Source of the DNA: Phycisphaeraceae bacterium
GTDB lineage: Bacteria > Planctomycetota > Phycisphaerae > Phycisphaerales > UBA1924
NCBI GenBank assembly: GCA_019636615.1
Contig: JAHBXF010000001.1
Span: 1,798,001 to 1,862,000 of the forward strand
Reading direction: 5' to 3'
Length of the DNA: 64,000 bases
The translations under genes were made by a program, and so were the position numbers. Below the pieces are notes generated by a model. That model worked only from the letters and a program-made list of their open reading frames with translations, searched no databases and had not been told where the DNA came from. The stretch's first letter is position 1. Every line of letters begins with the position of its first letter. Below, one piece after another: positions 48,830-56,459 of this stretch.

Positions 48830-49726
48830 TCATGCCGTGGCGGCTTCCACGCCGCGGGTATCGATCACCGCCCCGGTCCACGCCATGCCGATGGGCACAC
48901 CAATCAGGGCCCCGGCGGCCCAGTCGAAGGAAACCGGCCGCGCGATCGGCAGCAACGACAAAGAAAAGGCGGCATCTAGCGCGCCCCCGCCGTGCATCAT
49001 CATGGCCGCGATCGGCGCAACCGTCGCCACAACCGACATCGCCAGCACGGGTGTCGCGGGTTGAATCACCGTGCCAAGCACGCCCGCGATCCAGTTGGCC
49101 GCAGCGCCGGCCGCGATGCCGCCGATCACGCACGCCATCAGCGTCTGCCCCTTGAGCATGGACACAGCAACGATGGTCACCGCCACGCCCGCGGCGGCCG
49201 CGCCCACAACGCCGCACAAAGCCAGCGGCTTGGCCCACGCGCCGTCGGGGCACGCACGGACGAGCAATCTTCGATGGTCTTGAACCGCCACGCCATCGCC
49301 GGTGAGCACCAGTTCGGGCTGGTTCGCGCGTGCCGCGTGCGTCGCCATGAGCGTCAGCACGCACGCGCCGGCCATCGCCAGCGCGGCCTCCACACTCAGC
49401 CAGACGAGCGAACCGCCGTTGCCCGCCCGACGGATGATCGCATCCACCGATCCCAGCCACCACCCGGTCCAGGCAAAGACAAACCCGCCCGACAGAAGCC
49501 CGGTGCCCAGCGAAAAGACCCGCGTGCCCACAACGGCCATCACGCCCGCTGCCACCAAAGACACAAGCATGATGAGCAGCCCCAGCAGCGGCGACCCGCT
49601 CACCAGCAGCGTGTGCGCCGTGCCGCCGTCTGTGTCGCGCAGCGAGCGGACCATCCAGCCCACCACCGGGCCGATCGCCAGAAGTGCCACGAAAAGAAAC
49701 GCATAGCGTGCCATCGCTCGGATCAT
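48830..49726 (-). CDS. Polytopic membrane protein of unknown function
   Basis: About 298 residues, starting with MIRAMARYAFLFVALLAIG. At least six to eight hydrophobic segments are visible (for example LLGLLIMLVSLVAAGVMAVV, LALCGVVGAAAAGVAVTIVA, VLAMSVVATVAPIAAMMM). A soluble loop of about 30 residues in the middle (ARANQPELVLTGDGVAVQDH) precedes the last helices. No transporter motif is recognised. The gene stands 69 bases after the pseudokinase/FGE fusion gene on the same strand, so a shared role is possible. Function is unknown. Confidence 0.7.
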   Translation of the reverse strand: MIRAMARYAFLFVALLAIGPVVGWMVRSLRDTDGGTAHTLLVSGSPLLGLLIMLVSLVAAGVMAVVGTRVFSLGTGLLSGGFVFAWTGWWLGSVDAIIRRAGNGGSLVWLSVEAALAMAGACVLTLMATHAARANQPELVLTGDGVAVQDHRRLLVRACPDGAWAKPLALCGVVGAAAAGVAVTIVAVSMLKGQTLMACVIGGIAAGAAANWIAGVLGTVIQPATPVLAMSVVATVAPIAAMMMHGGGALDAAFSLSLLPIARPVSFDWAAGALIGVPIGMAWTGAVIDTRGVEAATA

Positions 49727-49795
49727 GCACCCCGAGGATAGCGGCCTCGCGCCCGGTTCCCTGCCCCGGCCGGCGGGCAAACACACAGCGTGCCC

Positions 49796-52700
49796 TCAAC
49801 GCCCGGCCACGGGCATGAAGTCCAGTTTGCGAAGGTCCTCGGCGATTTTCTGGGCAGGGTTTGCCCCGCGAAGCCCGCCCCCGCTCACCGTAAACGCCAG
49901 TCGGAAGCCAAGGTCCGACGCGCCCTGCCGCTGGATCGTGCTCGAGGCCTCGTGCGCCGTGCGGGCATCGAGGCCGGGCGGAGAGATCGAAGATCCACCG
50001 ATCACCCGGAAGGCCCCGCGGTTGCCCGACACAAACCGATTCACCGCGGCGGCATCCGGAAGGCCTTGCCCCTCGCCCACCAGGGCGTTGGCGCCGTTGG
50101 TGTCGTTGCACAGCCACTCGGCGATATTGCCCATCAAGTGCGTGAACATCGCCGCGCTTTCCTGCGACTGTTCAAACCACAGCCCGCTCTGCGCCGCCGG
50201 ATCGTGCCCCACGTCGTTCTTCAACCCGTCGTTGGCCGCGGGAATAAAGATGCCCGCGTGCGGCTGCACCGCTTCCCAGGTGCGGGCCTGAAGTTTCACC
50301 ACCGTTCCGTTGGGGCCCCAGTTCTGGGCGTAGTCAAACTGCTGCTTCCACTGCGCTCCGCGCCGCGGCCCCGAGCCCGCAGACATGCCCACCGCGCGGT
50401 TCCATTCGTCCTCATCGGGCAACCGGCACCCGAGCAGCGCCGCGACATACACCGCGCTCACCACGGGCACGTGGTTCACCGGCGAACTCACGCTGGGAGG
50501 CGGGGCCGAGACGCCGGGCGCGTAGAAGGGGTAATCGCCGGGCCACGCCTGCAACCCGGGCTTGAGACCGATCCACCCGTTGCTCGCCGCGACGCTGATC
50601 GTGTCGCGGGGGTGCCCGGCGGGCAAGACCTGATTCTCGGCCCACACCCAACTCCGCGGGCCGTCGCGGTTGTCAGAACCGCCAGAGACCGAGCCGCGGT
50701 TGAGCATGCCGCTCAGGCACACATTGCGCGATGACTCTTGCCCGAGCCCCCCGACAACCCGGGCCAGGAGCCCCACACTCACCTCGCCCGTCGCCAAGTA
50801 GCGGGGCGCTTCGGCGTCCTCGGCATCAAGCCGGATAAACGTCAGCGAGGCGCCGCCGTCAGGAGACGTGAACACCACGCTCGAAAAGTTCTCGGGCCCC
50901 GAGGCAGACCACCCCCGCATCGCAGGGCCGGATGAGGTCGGGTCGTTGCTCTTGCCCGCTTCGATGAACCCGATGCGTCGCGCCGCACGCGAGAATCGCG
51001 GGTCGCTCCGCAGTGTCGAAACGCCCTCGATGCCGTTCACCGCCGAGGTAAAGCCCGCGGCCAGCGACATCAGTTGGGGACGCTGCTGCTCCGCGTCGCC
51101 CCGGACCTGCTCGATGCGCTCGACGAGCCGCACAAACTGATAGTTGTACAGCGCGGGCGAGCTCAGCCCCGCCGGCGCGTCGGGGTCGACCCCCACGGCG
51201 CGCATCAGGTCGGGGTTGAACGCCGCGTAGACATCCTCGGCACGCGAGACATCCAGCCGCGCGTTCACCAGCGTGCGCCATGCCGCGGCAGTGGCGCCGA
51301 GCACCGTTCGGTCCAGCGTCTCGCGCCTGGCCGAATCGGCGAGCTGCGCGATGGCGCGGCTCCGGCTCTGCTGCCCCAGCGCGATGAGCCGCTGCGTGTC
51401 GGCGAGGGTCGATGGGAATGTATCGAGCCGTGCCAGTCCCGCCCACGCCTGCATCACCGCGGAGAGCGGCACCTCGGCCTCGCCAGCACGGGAGAGAATG
51501 TTCAGCAGTTCCGGCGCCCCAGCCAGCCGTGAGACTTCCTCGACAGACAGCACCCGCGCCAGCGAGGCCTGCACCGCCTGAGCATAGGTGGTGGCCTCGC
51601 GCTGCAGGCGCTGGTCGCTCATCGCGGGTTCACGCCCGAGAGACTCAATCGCGGCGCGGAGTTCCTGCGTTCGCTGCGAGAGCGTGGCCCCCTGCGCGTC
51701 GGCTTCTTCCCAGCGCCACCCTTGCGCGAGCCGCGCCTCGAGCCCTTCCACCGTGGAAAGGTGCGACGAAAGCCGCTGCGCCAGTTCGGCCAACTCCCCG
51801 CGCCCAGCACGCAGAGCGCCATCGAGCACCCCGCGCTGCTCCATGAACATCGGCAGTTTCGCATCGCGGAACTGCTCAGACCGCTCCGCCTGGCGGATCA
51901 CGGTGTCGAGTTTCTGCCCGCGAACCGAGAGCAGCAGATTCCTGGCCGCGGCTGCCGCCTCGCCCCCGCCGGGGGGCGCCGGCTGAATCACCACAGATTC
52001 GTACGAACGATTGATCTCTTCGATCCAGCGGCGCACGCCCTCCCACGCCGCTACGAGCGCCTGCTCGCCCGAATCTTCTCTCGCCCCGAACTCATCGAGC
52101 GACGCATCGAAGAAGATCTCTCCGAGGTCGCGCAGTTCGGCCGCGACGGCGCCGGTGCCGGCCCGCCACTCTCCTCGCGCACGCTCAACCGCCTTGATCA
52201 CGGCCTGCGCGCCCGGCAGCCCTCGACGAAACTCTTCGATCTCTGTCCGCAACGCCAACGCCTCGTCGGCGCGCCGCTGCGCCAGCGTCAGCATCTGCGC
52301 CGCGTCGATGGGTGCCTCTTCGCCGGGGCTCAACACCACCCCGGGCGCCGCCGACACACGCTGCACGTCTTCTTGAATCGCGTCGAAACGGCTCTTCAAT
52401 GCGTTGAAGGGCGTGCTGTATTCCCCGGCGGCGACCTCCCGGGGCGGCACACGGTCCAGAGCCTGCTGCACACGCTGCGCGGCCTCGCTCAGCGTTCTTC
52501 CGGCGGGCACAAGCCCGATCGCCGCCTCAAACCGCATCGTCCCCGCGAGGCGATCACCGATCGTTCTGGTCAGCGTCTCTTCGTTCGCCAGCAGCGACGC
52601 CCGCTCTTCATGGCAGCAGTCCGGGTCCGAGATCGCATCCCAGCCGCTGATGCCCCTGTCCCACAGGCGCGATGCCTCGTCTTTGAGCCCGTCCAGCACC

Positions 52701-53713
52701 CGCCGTTCCTCATTGATCGCGCGCTCAAACTCCGGCCGAAGCCCGCCCATTTCCTCCGATCGCGCCAGCAACGCTTGCAGCCCTTGCAGCCTCTGGTCGA
52801 TATCTGCGATCAACCCGTCTCGCTTCGAGGCCGACTCGCTGAAGTGGTTGGCCAGCGCGGGCTTGGGTGGTGGTGGCGGCGGTGGCCGTGTAAACCACCA
52901 CGCCGCGCCGCCCGCACCCGCCAGCACAACAACCGCCGCCGCGGCCTTCGCCCAGCCGGGAAGCCCGCCGCCGGGGTCTTTCACGGCCAGCGCGGCCTCT
53001 AACGCCGCGATGACGTCTTCCAGCGTGAGCGTGTCGGCCCCCGCCGTGGGATTGATGAGTTGCTCGCACAGCCGGCGCAGCGGCTCTCCGGGCCCGCCCA
53101 GCGATGACCACTCGGGCCCGCTGCGAATTTCGGTTCCAAAAGGCGCGGCCCGGTGCGCGACCAGTTCAAAGAGCAGACCGCCCAGGGCTTTCAGGTCTTC
53201 GCCCGCCGGGGCGTCGGCGGCGTGGGCGGCGGGGTCGATCAACCTGGGCAAGGGCGGGCCGTCATCGGTGCCCAGCAGCACGTTCCCCGGCCGCAGCCTG
53301 CCGTGCCCGCGCCCCTGCTGCGCGTCGCGCAGCGCGATCAGCCCCTCGGCCACCCCTCGGATGATCGCCCCGAGGTCTCGGGCCGACAGGCTCTTGCGCC
53401 GATCGATCAGCCCCTGCAGCGGCGAGCCAAGGTCGGTGACATAGAAGACACCCTCGGCTGTCTGCCCGATCTCGTGAATAGGCGCCCACCGCTGCGGCGC
53501 AGCCCCGGCCATTGACCGTTGCAACTCGGCCGCGAGCAGGAACGCCTTGGCTTGTCTGGCCAGAATCTCAGGATCGGCAAACTCATCGAAGGTGCGCAGC
53601 GACTTGACCGCGAAGCGGGCTTCGCCGCCCGCGCCATCGACGGCCGCGTACACGGTAAAAGGCCCGCTCGAGGCGATCTCGTCGGTGGTCTGATATCGGC
53701 CGAAGGTCGGCAT
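49796..53713 (-). CDS. Pseudokinase-TM-coiled-coil-FGE-like fusion protein
   Basis: A protein of 1305 residues. The N-terminal kinase-like domain (1-245) keeps the ATP-lysine (FAVKSL, K37), but the HRD motif is HGR (137-139) and DFG is replaced by DPA, so catalysis is unlikely. A TM segment lies at 254-273, then a run of seven prolines. About 290-900 is helical, Gln/Glu/Arg-rich and probably coiled coil. The C-terminal domain (about 960-1280) is FGE/sulfatase-modifying-factor-like: GCRLPDEDEWNRAV, MGNIAEWLCND, VIGGSSISPPG and SDLGFRLAF. The catalytic Cys pair of true FGE is absent. It should be a membrane-bound receptor or scaffold. GGGAG precedes the ATG. Confidence 0.82.
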   Translation of the reverse strand: MPTFGRYQTTDEIASSGPFTVYAAVDGAGGEARFAVKSLRTFDEFADPEILARQAKAFLLAAELQRSMAGAAPQRWAPIHEIGQTAEGVFYVTDLGSPLQGLIDRRKSLSARDLGAIIRGVAEGLIALRDAQQGRGHGRLRPGNVLLGTDDGPPLPRLIDPAAHAADAPAGEDLKALGGLLFELVAHRAAPFGTEIRSGPEWSSLGGPGEPLRRLCEQLINPTAGADTLTLEDVIAALEAALAVKDPGGGLPGWAKAAAAVVVLAGAGGAAWWFTRPPPPPPPKPALANHFSESASKRDGLIADIDQRLQGLQALLARSEEMGGLRPEFERAINEERRVLDGLKDEASRLWDRGISGWDAISDPDCCHEERASLLANEETLTRTIGDRLAGTMRFEAAIGLVPAGRTLSEAAQRVQQALDRVPPREVAAGEYSTPFNALKSRFDAIQEDVQRVSAAPGVVLSPGEEAPIDAAQMLTLAQRRADEALALRTEIEEFRRGLPGAQAVIKAVERARGEWRAGTGAVAAELRDLGEIFFDASLDEFGAREDSGEQALVAAWEGVRRWIEEINRSYESVVIQPAPPGGGEAAAAARNLLLSVRGQKLDTVIRQAERSEQFRDAKLPMFMEQRGVLDGALRAGRGELAELAQRLSSHLSTVEGLEARLAQGWRWEEADAQGATLSQRTQELRAAIESLGREPAMSDQRLQREATTYAQAVQASLARVLSVEEVSRLAGAPELLNILSRAGEAEVPLSAVMQAWAGLARLDTFPSTLADTQRLIALGQQSRSRAIAQLADSARRETLDRTVLGATAAAWRTLVNARLDVSRAEDVYAAFNPDLMRAVGVDPDAPAGLSSPALYNYQFVRLVERIEQVRGDAEQQRPQLMSLAAGFTSAVNGIEGVSTLRSDPRFSRAARRIGFIEAGKSNDPTSSGPAMRGWSASGPENFSSVVFTSPDGGASLTFIRLDAEDAEAPRYLATGEVSVGLLARVVGGLGQESSRNVCLSGMLNRGSVSGGSDNRDGPRSWVWAENQVLPAGHPRDTISVAASNGWIGLKPGLQAWPGDYPFYAPGVSAPPPSVSSPVNHVPVVSAVYVAALLGCRLPDEDEWNRAVGMSAGSGPRRGAQWKQQFDYAQNWGPNGTVVKLQARTWEAVQPHAGIFIPAANDGLKNDVGHDPAAQSGLWFEQSQESAAMFTHLMGNIAEWLCNDTNGANALVGEGQGLPDAAAVNRFVSGNRGAFRVIGGSSISPPGLDARTAHEASSTIQRQGASDLGFRLAFTVSGGGLRGANPAQKIAEDLRKLDFMPVAGR

Positions 53714-53790
53714 CAGGCTCTCGCTCCCGGCCTAGCCGGCGCCTCAGGGTGAAGCGTCAGAAGTTGGTGGTGGGGCCTTTCTGGCCGCGT

Positions 53791-54342
53791 TCACTTCGCG
53801 TCAAAGACCGGCTCGGGGTTCACGCCGATGCCGCTGCGGCGGATCGTGATCTCGATGGCGTCGACCTTGCTCCAGTTCTTGTCAAACAACGGGATGGCCC
53901 GCCGACGGACCTCCTGCCCGCGGGACGCTTCCATCGCCAGCGCTCGTGAGTTCGCCAGGATGTACAGGTTGCCACGGTTGCTCGCGCGCCACTTCGCCCA
54001 GATGGGGTCAGACTTGCGCAGCACCACGCGGGTCTCGTCGCCGTCCACAAACGAACGCGACCAGCGGTACTCGGACGAATCCCGGCGCAGCGCATCGTCG
54101 CCGCTGAAGTAGTCGTTGAGCGACTTGCTCTCCCACATCCCCTTCTCGCCGTCGCCTACCGCCACCAGGTCGATCTCGACCTTCCCCATGCGCCCGCCGT
54201 CCTGCAGCGAGGCGTCCGGGCGGACACCAAGGTCCATCGGCTTGATGCGGGGCTTGCTCTCGCAGGCGGCAAGGCCCGCCGCCAGCACCACGGCCAGCGC
54301 CACTGTGCGGAAACCATCAACAACGCGCAGACATGATCCCAT
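53791..54342 (-). CDS. Lipoprotein of unknown function
   Basis: A protein of 183 residues. The ATG at 54342 follows AGGGG. The signal peptide ends in a lipobox (VVLAAGLAAC), so it should be a lipid-anchored protein. The mature domain is compact (VEIDLVAVGDGEKGMWESKS, SLNDYFSGDDALRRD, DPIWAKWRASNRGNLYILAN, KVDAIEITIRRSGIGV). I do not recognise the family with confidence. It stands between the pseudokinase/FGE gene (77-base gap) and the 638-residue gene (200-base gap), so the three probably belong together. Confidence 0.72.
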   Translation of the reverse strand: MGSCLRVVDGFRTVALAVVLAAGLAACESKPRIKPMDLGVRPDASLQDGGRMGKVEIDLVAVGDGEKGMWESKSLNDYFSGDDALRRDSSEYRWSRSFVDGDETRVVLRKSDPIWAKWRASNRGNLYILANSRALAMEASRGQEVRRRAIPLFDKNWSKVDAIEITIRRSGIGVNPEPVFDAK

Positions 54343-54542
54343 GGAACGCCCCTGTTCTGTGTGCTCGCGTGCTCGCCGGCCCACGCTGCCTACTCCGAGC
54401 AACCGGCCGCCTGCCCCCGCTGGGTCAGTGTGCGACTCTGGCCGGTCACTCCCAAGAAAGACGCCGGGCCCGCTCTCGCGCGCCCGGGTTGTGCAAGCAT
54501 ACCAGACTTCCTGGCCCCACGCGCGTGGGCCGCTGTTGTTCT

Positions 54543-56459
54543 TCAGCGTGTCGCGCTCGCCAGGCAATCCCGCACCACGTTCCTCACCTCGGTGTTCAAC
54601 TGCGGGTCCGGGACGATCAGCGCGCGGCACCCGCACAGCAGAGCGTACAGGTCTTCCACCGATGAATCAAAGACCCGGTGAACCGCGCTCGCCGGTGCGT
54701 CGCCGTAGTCTTTGCACCGGCTGTCCGGGCTCACGCGCGTCAACATTCGCACAAGCGCGGCCAGCACCCCGAACCACAGTTTCGGCGGCACCGCCGCGAA
54801 GGCCGACTCCGGTGTGCCTCCGTCAGCCAGCAGCCGCTGGGGCCCCAGGGACTGCGCAAACCGCTTGTCGCTGTTGAACGCCTGTTCGATCCGCTCGGGT
54901 AGGTCGAGCCCTGTCTCCATCAGCCCCGCCGCCGCCGTCGCCAGGCTGAAGAGATCGTCGAGCACCACGGGGAGCGGGCGTTTCTCGTCCGCCAGCAGCA
55001 GCCGCACACCGATGACACCCAGCGCGTACAGATCGCACGGCGTGGAGAGCATGGGAATGACCTCGAAGATCACGTCAGAAATCGGCACCCCCATCGCCGA
55101 GCGAAGCCGTTCAAGAACATCGGCGGGGAGTTTGTGCGGCGCGGTCCTCAAGCGAACTTCGCCCGCGCTCATCCCCCCCTGCGTGTCCACCGTCGCGTGC
55201 AGGTCGATGCGCACGCCCTCGACGCTGGCCCGCAGCCACACAAGGTCGCTCGATGTCGTCAAAAAACGTTCGTGCGAGGCCAGCGTGCACTCGATGATCG
55301 AACCGCCCCCCTCGCTGAGAATGTTCCGCAGCCGCAGCGTGCCCTGACCCGCCGCGGTCCGTGCCATTGAGGCCGGCGCATAAATCGACAGCCCGCCCAC
55401 CCGAGCCGGCAGAAAGTACCGCGTCGCCGCACCGGGGATGCTCAGTTCCGCCGCATCCCCCGGTGTCGCCAGCACGGGTCGCGCCGTCCACCACGAGGGC
55501 AACGCGGGCGTGCCTTGCTGCAGGTGCACCCTGAAACTCCCCGCCGAGAGGTTCAGGAGCGGGGTCTGCGCCGACATCGAGGCGTCACGCACCTGCGCCA
55601 CACACCCCGAATAGACCATGAGTTGAACGTGCAGGGCTTCGACCAGCCGCCCACCCACACCACCCCCCGAGAGGTTCAGCCACCCCCCGCGCGGGCCCCC
55701 CGCCTTCCCGGCCGCGCTGGTGCCGCCAGGCTTGCCCGATCGCACCATGTCCGAGAACTCTTCCAGCGAGTGCGGGGCGTACGGCGCGATCATCATCAGG
55801 CCGCCCCCGGGGTTGAGCGCCACGGCGTCGGCGGGCATGCCCAGCGCGCTGCGCAGCGCCCCGGCGTCTTCCTGCAAGACGTCAAGAGGCAGGAACTCCG
55901 AGGCCTCACCCGCCTGCGGTTGATACAGGTGCCTGGCCAGCGTCGCGCTGTACACCGGCAGCCCCTTGCGTGCCAGCAGCGTGTCGTCGGTGCACAGCGC
56001 CCACGCCACACCCTGGCGGTCCTGCGCCGGCAGCGGCTCGAACTTCTTGCCGTCGACGAACATCGGCGCCGGGTGCGTTGTTTCCCACCCGCACTCCAGG
56101 ATCGGCAGCGCGCCGCCCGCCGCCGCGGCGCGGCAGCGTGCCGCCCACCGCTCGTCAAGCCCTTTGTTCGTCACAGATTCGCGGTATGCCGGCGGGGCCG
56201 AACCCAGCCCCCCGAGTTGCTGCACCCACACCTCAAGCCACTGGTGCACCTGCCCCTGCGCATCCGTCAGACACCCGAGAAACACCCGCGCATCAAGGGT
56301 GTCACGCAGCATCAGCGGCGAGGCCCCGCCATCGCGTGACATCACCACGCACAGCCGTACCGGGCCCGCCCCGCTCTGGGGCGAAAGCGGCGCCGCGGCA
56401 TACTCCGCGGGCAGGCGGGCGGGCAGTGAACCAACGACAAAGGCGGGCGGTTGTGGCAC
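54543..56459 (-). CDS. Large protein with kinase-like C-lobe motif, unknown function
   Basis: A protein of 638 residues, GTG start at 56459 with GAGGGA upstream. No signal peptide or TM is evident. The middle is beta-rich and Gly-rich, with GGWLNLSGGGVGGRLVEALH and MVYSGCVAQVRDASMSAQTP. About residues 465-485 read STPCDLYALGVIGVRLLL, which closely resembles helix F of Ser/Thr kinases (DxxALGxxxxxLL). A helical region of about 150 residues follows, as in a kinase C-lobe. No HRD, DFG or Walker motif was found, so it may be a degenerate kinase. It lies upstream of the lipoprotein gene. Confidence 0.72.
   Translation of the reverse strand: MPQPPAFVVGSLPARLPAEYAAAPLSPQSGAGPVRLCVVMSRDGGASPLMLRDTLDARVFLGCLTDAQGQVHQWLEVWVQQLGGLGSAPPAYRESVTNKGLDERWAARCRAAAAGGALPILECGWETTHPAPMFVDGKKFEPLPAQDRQGVAWALCTDDTLLARKGLPVYSATLARHLYQPQAGEASEFLPLDVLQEDAGALRSALGMPADAVALNPGGGLMMIAPYAPHSLEEFSDMVRSGKPGGTSAAGKAGGPRGGWLNLSGGGVGGRLVEALHVQLMVYSGCVAQVRDASMSAQTPLLNLSAGSFRVHLQQGTPALPSWWTARPVLATPGDAAELSIPGAATRYFLPARVGGLSIYAPASMARTAAGQGTLRLRNILSEGGGSIIECTLASHERFLTTSSDLVWLRASVEGVRIDLHATVDTQGGMSAGEVRLRTAPHKLPADVLERLRSAMGVPISDVIFEVIPMLSTPCDLYALGVIGVRLLLADEKRPLPVVLDDLFSLATAAAGLMETGLDLPERIEQAFNSDKRFAQSLGPQRLLADGGTPESAFAAVPPKLWFGVLAALVRMLTRVSPDSRCKDYGDAPASAVHRVFDSSVEDLYALLCGCRALIVPDPQLNTEVRNVVRDCLASATR

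Follow-up and report, generated by a model that had tools for sequence, protein, structure and literature searches.

Three genes of a Phycisphaeraceae locus, split off from a type VI secretion gene cluster, include those for a divergent TssJ and a pseudokinase-FGE fusion

The locus described here lies in a window of 64,000 nucleotides (contig JAHBXF010000001.1 of assembly GCA_019636615.1, from a Phycisphaeraceae bacterium), the whole stretch of DNA that was analysed, where four genes follow one another on the minus strand. A preliminary description made from the letters of the window had proposed that they encode a membrane sensor complex, and all four of the open reading frames that it claimed are indeed present, as follows:

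54543-56459, minus strand: gene for a 638-residue protein, first gene of the module
53791-54342, minus strand: lipoprotein gene, assigned to TssJ by AlphaFold2 and Foldseek (ATG at 54342; lipobox Cys near 54264)
49796-53713, minus strand: gene for a 1305-residue pseudokinase-TM-coiled region-FGE protein, in which an inactive kinase of PpkA-like layout is joined to a TagR-like domain
52967-53713, minus strand: kinase-fold domain of this protein, without the catalytic Asp (HGR, residues 137-139), predicted cytoplasmic
52889-52945, minus strand: its single TM helix, residues ~257-275, at the hydropathy maximum
49877-50962, minus strand: its FGE/SUMF1-like domain (PF03781), without the FGE Cys pair, predicted periplasmic
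about 48830-49726, minus strand: gene for a polytopic membrane protein, a chromosomal neighbour outside the module

The gap between the gene for the 638-residue protein and that for the lipoprotein is of about 200 bases, and 77 bases separate the latter from the gene for the 1305-residue protein.

The lipoprotein, whose likely start, read from the sequence, is the ATG given above, has a signal peptide with a lipobox, the Cys of which is conserved without exception in 14 orthologues. It is divergent at the sequence level, and no Pfam, NCBIfam or PDB profile match to the TssJ family was obtained. The first Foldseek matches of its AlphaFold2 model (pLDDT 91.9) are 3zhn, 4a1r, 3rx9, 4y7o and 6ixh; the best is P. 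aeruginosa TssJ1 (3zhn, E 2.7e-6, probability 1.00), and further matches include Serratia TssJ, E. coli TssJ and TssJ within the TssM complex, followed by Francisella IglE. The top 10 PDB matches are all TssJ or TssJ-containing entries, with TM up to 0.69 by target. The modelled fold identifies the window lipoprotein as TssJ, the outer-membrane lipoprotein of the membrane complex of the type VI secretion system (T6SS). The TssJ gene is found close to TssK-TssL-TssM in relatives and is displaced in the genus studied here; in G003 it is apparently frameshifted (L083:3430-4225, plus strand, two overlapping frames), which may be a sequencing error in the MAG. Since family profiles leave so divergent a TssJ blank, planctomycete T6SSs that seemingly lack this component may be complete.

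The 638-residue protein, encoded by the first gene of the module, yielded no Pfam, NCBIfam or PDB profile match, and its model (pLDDT 82) gave a best Foldseek E of 0.011, with no consistent fold and no significant PDB match. Its association with secretion emerges from its distribution: the protein is found in 16 of 61 related genomes, all of them among the 18 that carry both TssK (PF05936) and the sheath protein VipB (16/0/2/43 for both, protein only, T6SS only and neither; Fisher p 7.5e-13), and the same profile inside the family reads 15/0/2/20 (p 1.5e-8). The kinase motif noted in the preliminary description is retained as one helix-F-like stretch, the only part that aligns with 15 active kinases (hhalign, 19-62 columns, 21-33%), and a profile-profile comparison with the pseudokinase family gave no match. 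The protein is classed, by sequence and distribution, as a conserved T6SS-linked family whose kinase character is only putative. Its gene occupies what is presumably the position of fha in the H1-T6SS cluster of P. aeruginosa, and in gene position alone is it fha-like: no FHA domain was found in the protein, the TagH C-terminal family was not found in the 61 genomes, and an identity with Fha was rejected. A contig search with an alignment of close homologues returned only Phycisphaerae-type MAGs, one of them labelled Leptolyngbya; this entry, QWIH01000005.1 (L126), titled Leptolyngbya sp. PLA1, encodes the protein at 49% identity and is probably a mislabelled Phycisphaerales MAG.

The earlier remark that no secretion structural gene lies nearby is true of the 64-kb window only, because a complete T6SS is encoded elsewhere in the genome. 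The main cluster is located at 694-734 kb of contig C1, 1.1 Mb from the window module (1,847-1,855 kb), and comprises, in order, VgrG, a DUF5675 protein, TssH, TssG, TssF, TssE, ImpE, Hcp, TssC, TssB and TssA, and onward from TssA a giant TPS protein, TpsB, a second FGE protein, TssM, TssL, TssK and c6; PAAR is encoded outside this cluster. The components of a type i system are present, namely those of the sheath, tube and ATPase (TssB/TssC, Hcp and TssH; PF05591, PF05943, PF05638 and ClpB-type AAA), those of the baseplate and spike (TssE, TssF, TssG, TssK and VgrG/PAAR), and those of the membrane complex, with the IcmF N domain of TssM at E 4e-54 in this genome and TssL recognised by homology cluster c5, while DotU (TssL) reaches E 4e-18 in G013.

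In most relatives, spread over many genera, the two pieces are joined in the order 638-residue protein (c2), TssJ, pseudokinase-FGE protein, c6, TssK, TssL and TssM, the genes downstream of the pseudokinase-FGE gene being c6, then TssK (E 2e-62), DotU/TssL and IcmF/TssM. They are contiguous in G013, G005 (with TssK divided between two contigs), G027, G036, G060, G024 and G017; exceptions are G023, whose pseudokinase-FGE gene is remote from the T6SS, and G003, where the gene for the 638-residue protein is separated from TssJ. In the genome under study and in its genus, the break in the operon falls 3' of the pseudokinase-FGE gene. An assembly artefact was judged unlikely, because both sites are interior to one 1.93-Mb contig and because G001, of the same genus, is split in the same way, at places well inside its contigs; nor is such a split unusual in itself, given that some 9% of T6SSi have their genes spread over several loci (PMC4793230).

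The first three genes of the proposed four-gene unit are conserved together in relatives, whereas the fourth is not linked to them there. The membrane protein occurs in 36 of the 37 family genomes, including 19 of the 20 without a T6SS, its family is present in this family and in a few neighbours within the order, and folE2 adjoins its gene at six of the nine relative loci checked; it is a folE2 neighbour outside the module, and was rejected as a module member. Three of the four window genes are a displaced piece of a complete Phycisphaerales T6SS, and the fourth is an unrelated neighbour. That the four could instead form a separate sensor complex, independent of the T6SS as first proposed, is scarcely credible: the distance of 1.1 Mb between module and cluster would fit such a complex, but the TssJ fold of the lipoprotein, the perfect nesting of the 638-residue protein in T6SS-positive genomes, the contiguity with TssKLM in relatives and the unlinked fourth gene all argue against it. 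The unit is, in relatives, the 5' end of the T6SS operon; conserved and informative as it is, it consists of parts of a machine already known, and represents a variant of T6SS control and not a system of a new type. The parallel already drawn with TagQRST/PpkA was apt.

The pseudokinase-TM-FGE architecture put forward for the 1305-residue protein is borne out by profiles. Its N-terminal 250 residues match Ser/Thr kinases (profile match StkP, E 7.6e-11) and align by hhalign with 15 active kinases of the same genome at 99.4% (E 5e-21). One TM helix follows the kinase domain, with the same hydropathy maximum in 14 of 14 orthologues, and a poorly conserved stretch of about 640 residues leads to an FGE domain that scores above the Pfam cut-off (PF03781) and is linked to T6SS control genes. 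With a single TM helix and a cytoplasmic kinase domain, the FGE domain is predicted to be periplasmic; inspection of the FGE alignment agrees with the reported absence of the FGE Cys pair. The name TagR-like is used here for homology to PF03781 and linkage to T6SS control, not for TagR orthology; TagR itself is an FGE-family protein.

The 1305-residue protein has the layout of PpkA, with a kinase fold, a single TM helix and a predicted periplasmic C-terminal domain, in which the catalytic residues of the PpkA type are not intact. The loss of key kinase residues reported earlier (DFG reads DPA here) extends to the orthologues: none of the 13 that could be aligned keeps the Asp of the HRD motif, the HRD Arg is lost in all, and the motif reads HG-x in nearly all. 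As a consequence of the lost Asp, the protein is PpkA-like in layout and is not classed as a PpkA kinase. An additional orthologue (G024/L069) reads HGD and lacks the catalytic-loop Asn; L065:10692-15491 and L069:2331-6773, both on the plus strand, are strongly diverged orthologues. The VAIK Lys survives in 9 of 13 orthologues and the Asn of the catalytic loop in 10, so the domain may still bind ATP or be weakly catalytic. These residues, and the fact that some proteins classed as pseudokinases are enzymes, would be compatible with a kinase domain that is active in an atypical way and acts in a normal threonine-phosphorylation pathway. Such activity is nonetheless improbable in view of the loss of the HRD Asp and Arg from all 13 aligned orthologues, the lack of the Fha C-terminal family in the 61 genomes, and the lack of PppA among the cluster genes scanned. 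Even so, T6SS proteins could be phosphorylated by some other, active kinase, since there are 21 Pkinase matches in the genome.

The second FGE protein, in the main cluster, is a TagF-TM-FGE fusion (L166:7957-11742, minus strand; G000:C1 about 722957-726742) encoded directly after TssM in gene order. The 300 residues of its N-terminal domain align with 23 planctomycete TagF proteins in collinear fashion over 225 columns (hhalign 92%, E 6.7e-7), and four control alignments all remained below 0.5%. This homology was detected only with the 23-member family alignment: in single-sequence scans the domain falls below the Pfam and NCBIfam cut-offs, and neither a sequence search against the PDB nor a comparison with one distant TagF found it. 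In these genomes, standard profiles detect the TagF and TagH families poorly, if at all. When aligned against the residues described in PMC5995506, the fusion keeps GK and S-D-R, which are required for TagF binding of Fha and for repression (PMC5995506), and the D-W pair of TagF is absent. Free-standing TagF proteins, weak matches to the Pfam and NCBIfam TagF families, occupy the same slot 5' of TpsB in G008, G016, G017 and G023, and G014 encodes a stand-alone TagF-like protein downstream. Judging from these alignments, the second FGE protein bears a TagF domain, so that both PpkA and TagF, which are known switches of the T6SS, occur here as fusions with a TagR-like FGE sensor; the two fusions place predicted FGE sensors on both arms of T6SS post-translational control.

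It is also conceivable, if rather unlikely, that both fusions are structural parts, or periplasmic struts, of an enlarged TssJLM complex and not switches. The tight linkage to TssJ and TssM, the long periplasmic coiled regions and the loss of catalysis are in keeping with such a role, but kinase and TagF domains serve T6SS control in the cases that have been studied (PMC10482370, PMC6082577), and the TagF domain, being free-standing in several relatives, is not needed as a strut.

The module is most likely a conserved post-translational on/off switch for assembly of the T6SS membrane complex. The proposal as a whole, in which the first three genes represent the 5' part of the T6SS operon, now detached, and the pseudokinase-FGE and TagF-FGE proteins constitute an envelope-sensing on/off switch, is regarded as probable. 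TssJ would anchor the TssJLM complex in the outer membrane, while the pseudokinase-TM-FGE protein would cross the inner membrane and expose its FGE domain on the periplasmic side; as partner it would have the TagF-TM-FGE protein encoded just 3' of TssM in the main cluster. Both FGE domains may bind one shared cue in the periplasm or at the outer membrane, for example contact, damage to the membrane or the state of TssJ/TssM, which would shift the balance across the membrane between TagF (off) and the pseudokinase (on). The latter would act as a docking scaffold and not as an enzyme, with the 638-residue protein as a cytoplasmic target or adaptor in the place of Fha. Scaffold action has a parallel in Acidovorax, where kinase-dead PpkA still forms foci and an outer-membrane partner sets their position (PMC12607579).

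Comparison with studied systems suggests which parts of this control are shared. The H1-T6SS of P. aeruginosa (TagQRST-PpkA-Fha1-PppA, TagF) likewise places a periplasmic FGE-type TagR, a membrane kinase PpkA and a repressor TagF around TssJ-TssM (PMC10482370), with TagR promoting PpkA action according to work cited in PMC10482370; it senses the envelope and acts on membrane-complex and sheath assembly (PMC10482370), and by analogy the same logic may apply here. In contrast to that system, the kinase here is dead, and the FGE domains form part of the same proteins as the pseudokinase and TagF. The cluster genes examined showed no TagQ/S/T, PppA or TagH, and the first gene codes for an unrelated protein of 638 residues. 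In Serratia marcescens (TagF/RtkS-PpkA), the TagF gene also lies right after tssM, its product blocks TssL focus formation and membrane-complex assembly, and PpkA has a periplasmic sensing domain, as in the pseudokinase-FGE layout (PMC6082577); TagF is soluble there, whereas here it is membrane-anchored with a predicted periplasmic FGE domain. The TagF-PppA protein of Agrobacterium also contains TagF within a fusion, with the GK and S-D-R residues (PMC5995506), but the fusion is to a phosphatase, while here it is to a transmembrane FGE sensor and the D-W pair is missing.

A literature search on planctomycete T6SS control, T6SS pseudokinases and TPS-T6SS operons, with subscription papers mostly outside its scope, gave no direct precedent. 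What is known of T6SS control comes almost entirely from Proteobacteria, in which an active kinase and a phosphatase operate together with Fha, TagF and TagQRST. Its logic (FGE sensor, kinase fold and TagF) appears to be preserved in Phycisphaerales, but recast in the form of two receptor fusions, the kinase being dead. If true, the question of PpkA as enzyme or scaffold, as well as signalling from the periplasm to TagF, becomes directly testable. The analysis also puts a name to three genes for which family profiles offer none or an incomplete one: the divergent TssJ, the pseudokinase-FGE protein and the T6SS-linked 638-residue family.

The main cluster also encodes a two-partner secretion pair, namely TpsB (L166:5586-7772, minus strand) and a giant of about 4200 residues with a TPS domain (G000:C1 about 707939-720466; L164:139-12666, minus strand), the latter as a 4176-residue open reading frame (PF05860, E 4e-29). 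TpsB is found in the T6SS region of 14 T6SS-positive genomes, with the TPS giant seen in 13 of the 14, G008 showing TpsB without a TPS domain inside the stretch read; the pair lies beside TagF in nearly all 14, and between TagF and TssA where the order is readable. In Vibrio fischeri, the giant adhesin TasL is encoded with the T6SS and is required for prey contact (PMC9040878), which makes a prey-holding adhesin a reasonable guess for the TPS giant. Both are surface giants encoded with a T6SS, the window genes having no part in this comparison; TasL is a lipoprotein, whereas the giant considered here is a TpsB-exported TPS-domain protein, and the likeness drawn is one of description. Firing might then proceed without a dedicated phosphorylation cascade, with two transmembrane FGE receptors of opposite sign (TagF off; the dead kinase on, docking the 638-residue protein) reading the same periplasmic signal, maybe the engagement of the TPS adhesin, so that assembly occurs only at held prey; this idea is speculative.

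Two further proteins accompany the cluster. Just before TssK in most relatives lies c6 (L071:1910-2488, minus strand; L051:13848-14723, plus strand), a helical protein of about 300 residues for which no convincing family match was obtained and whose copy in the genome under study is called short. At the end of the cluster, the DUF5675 protein (L070:544-1224, minus strand) adjoins VgrG, and is a possible cargo or spike-associated protein.
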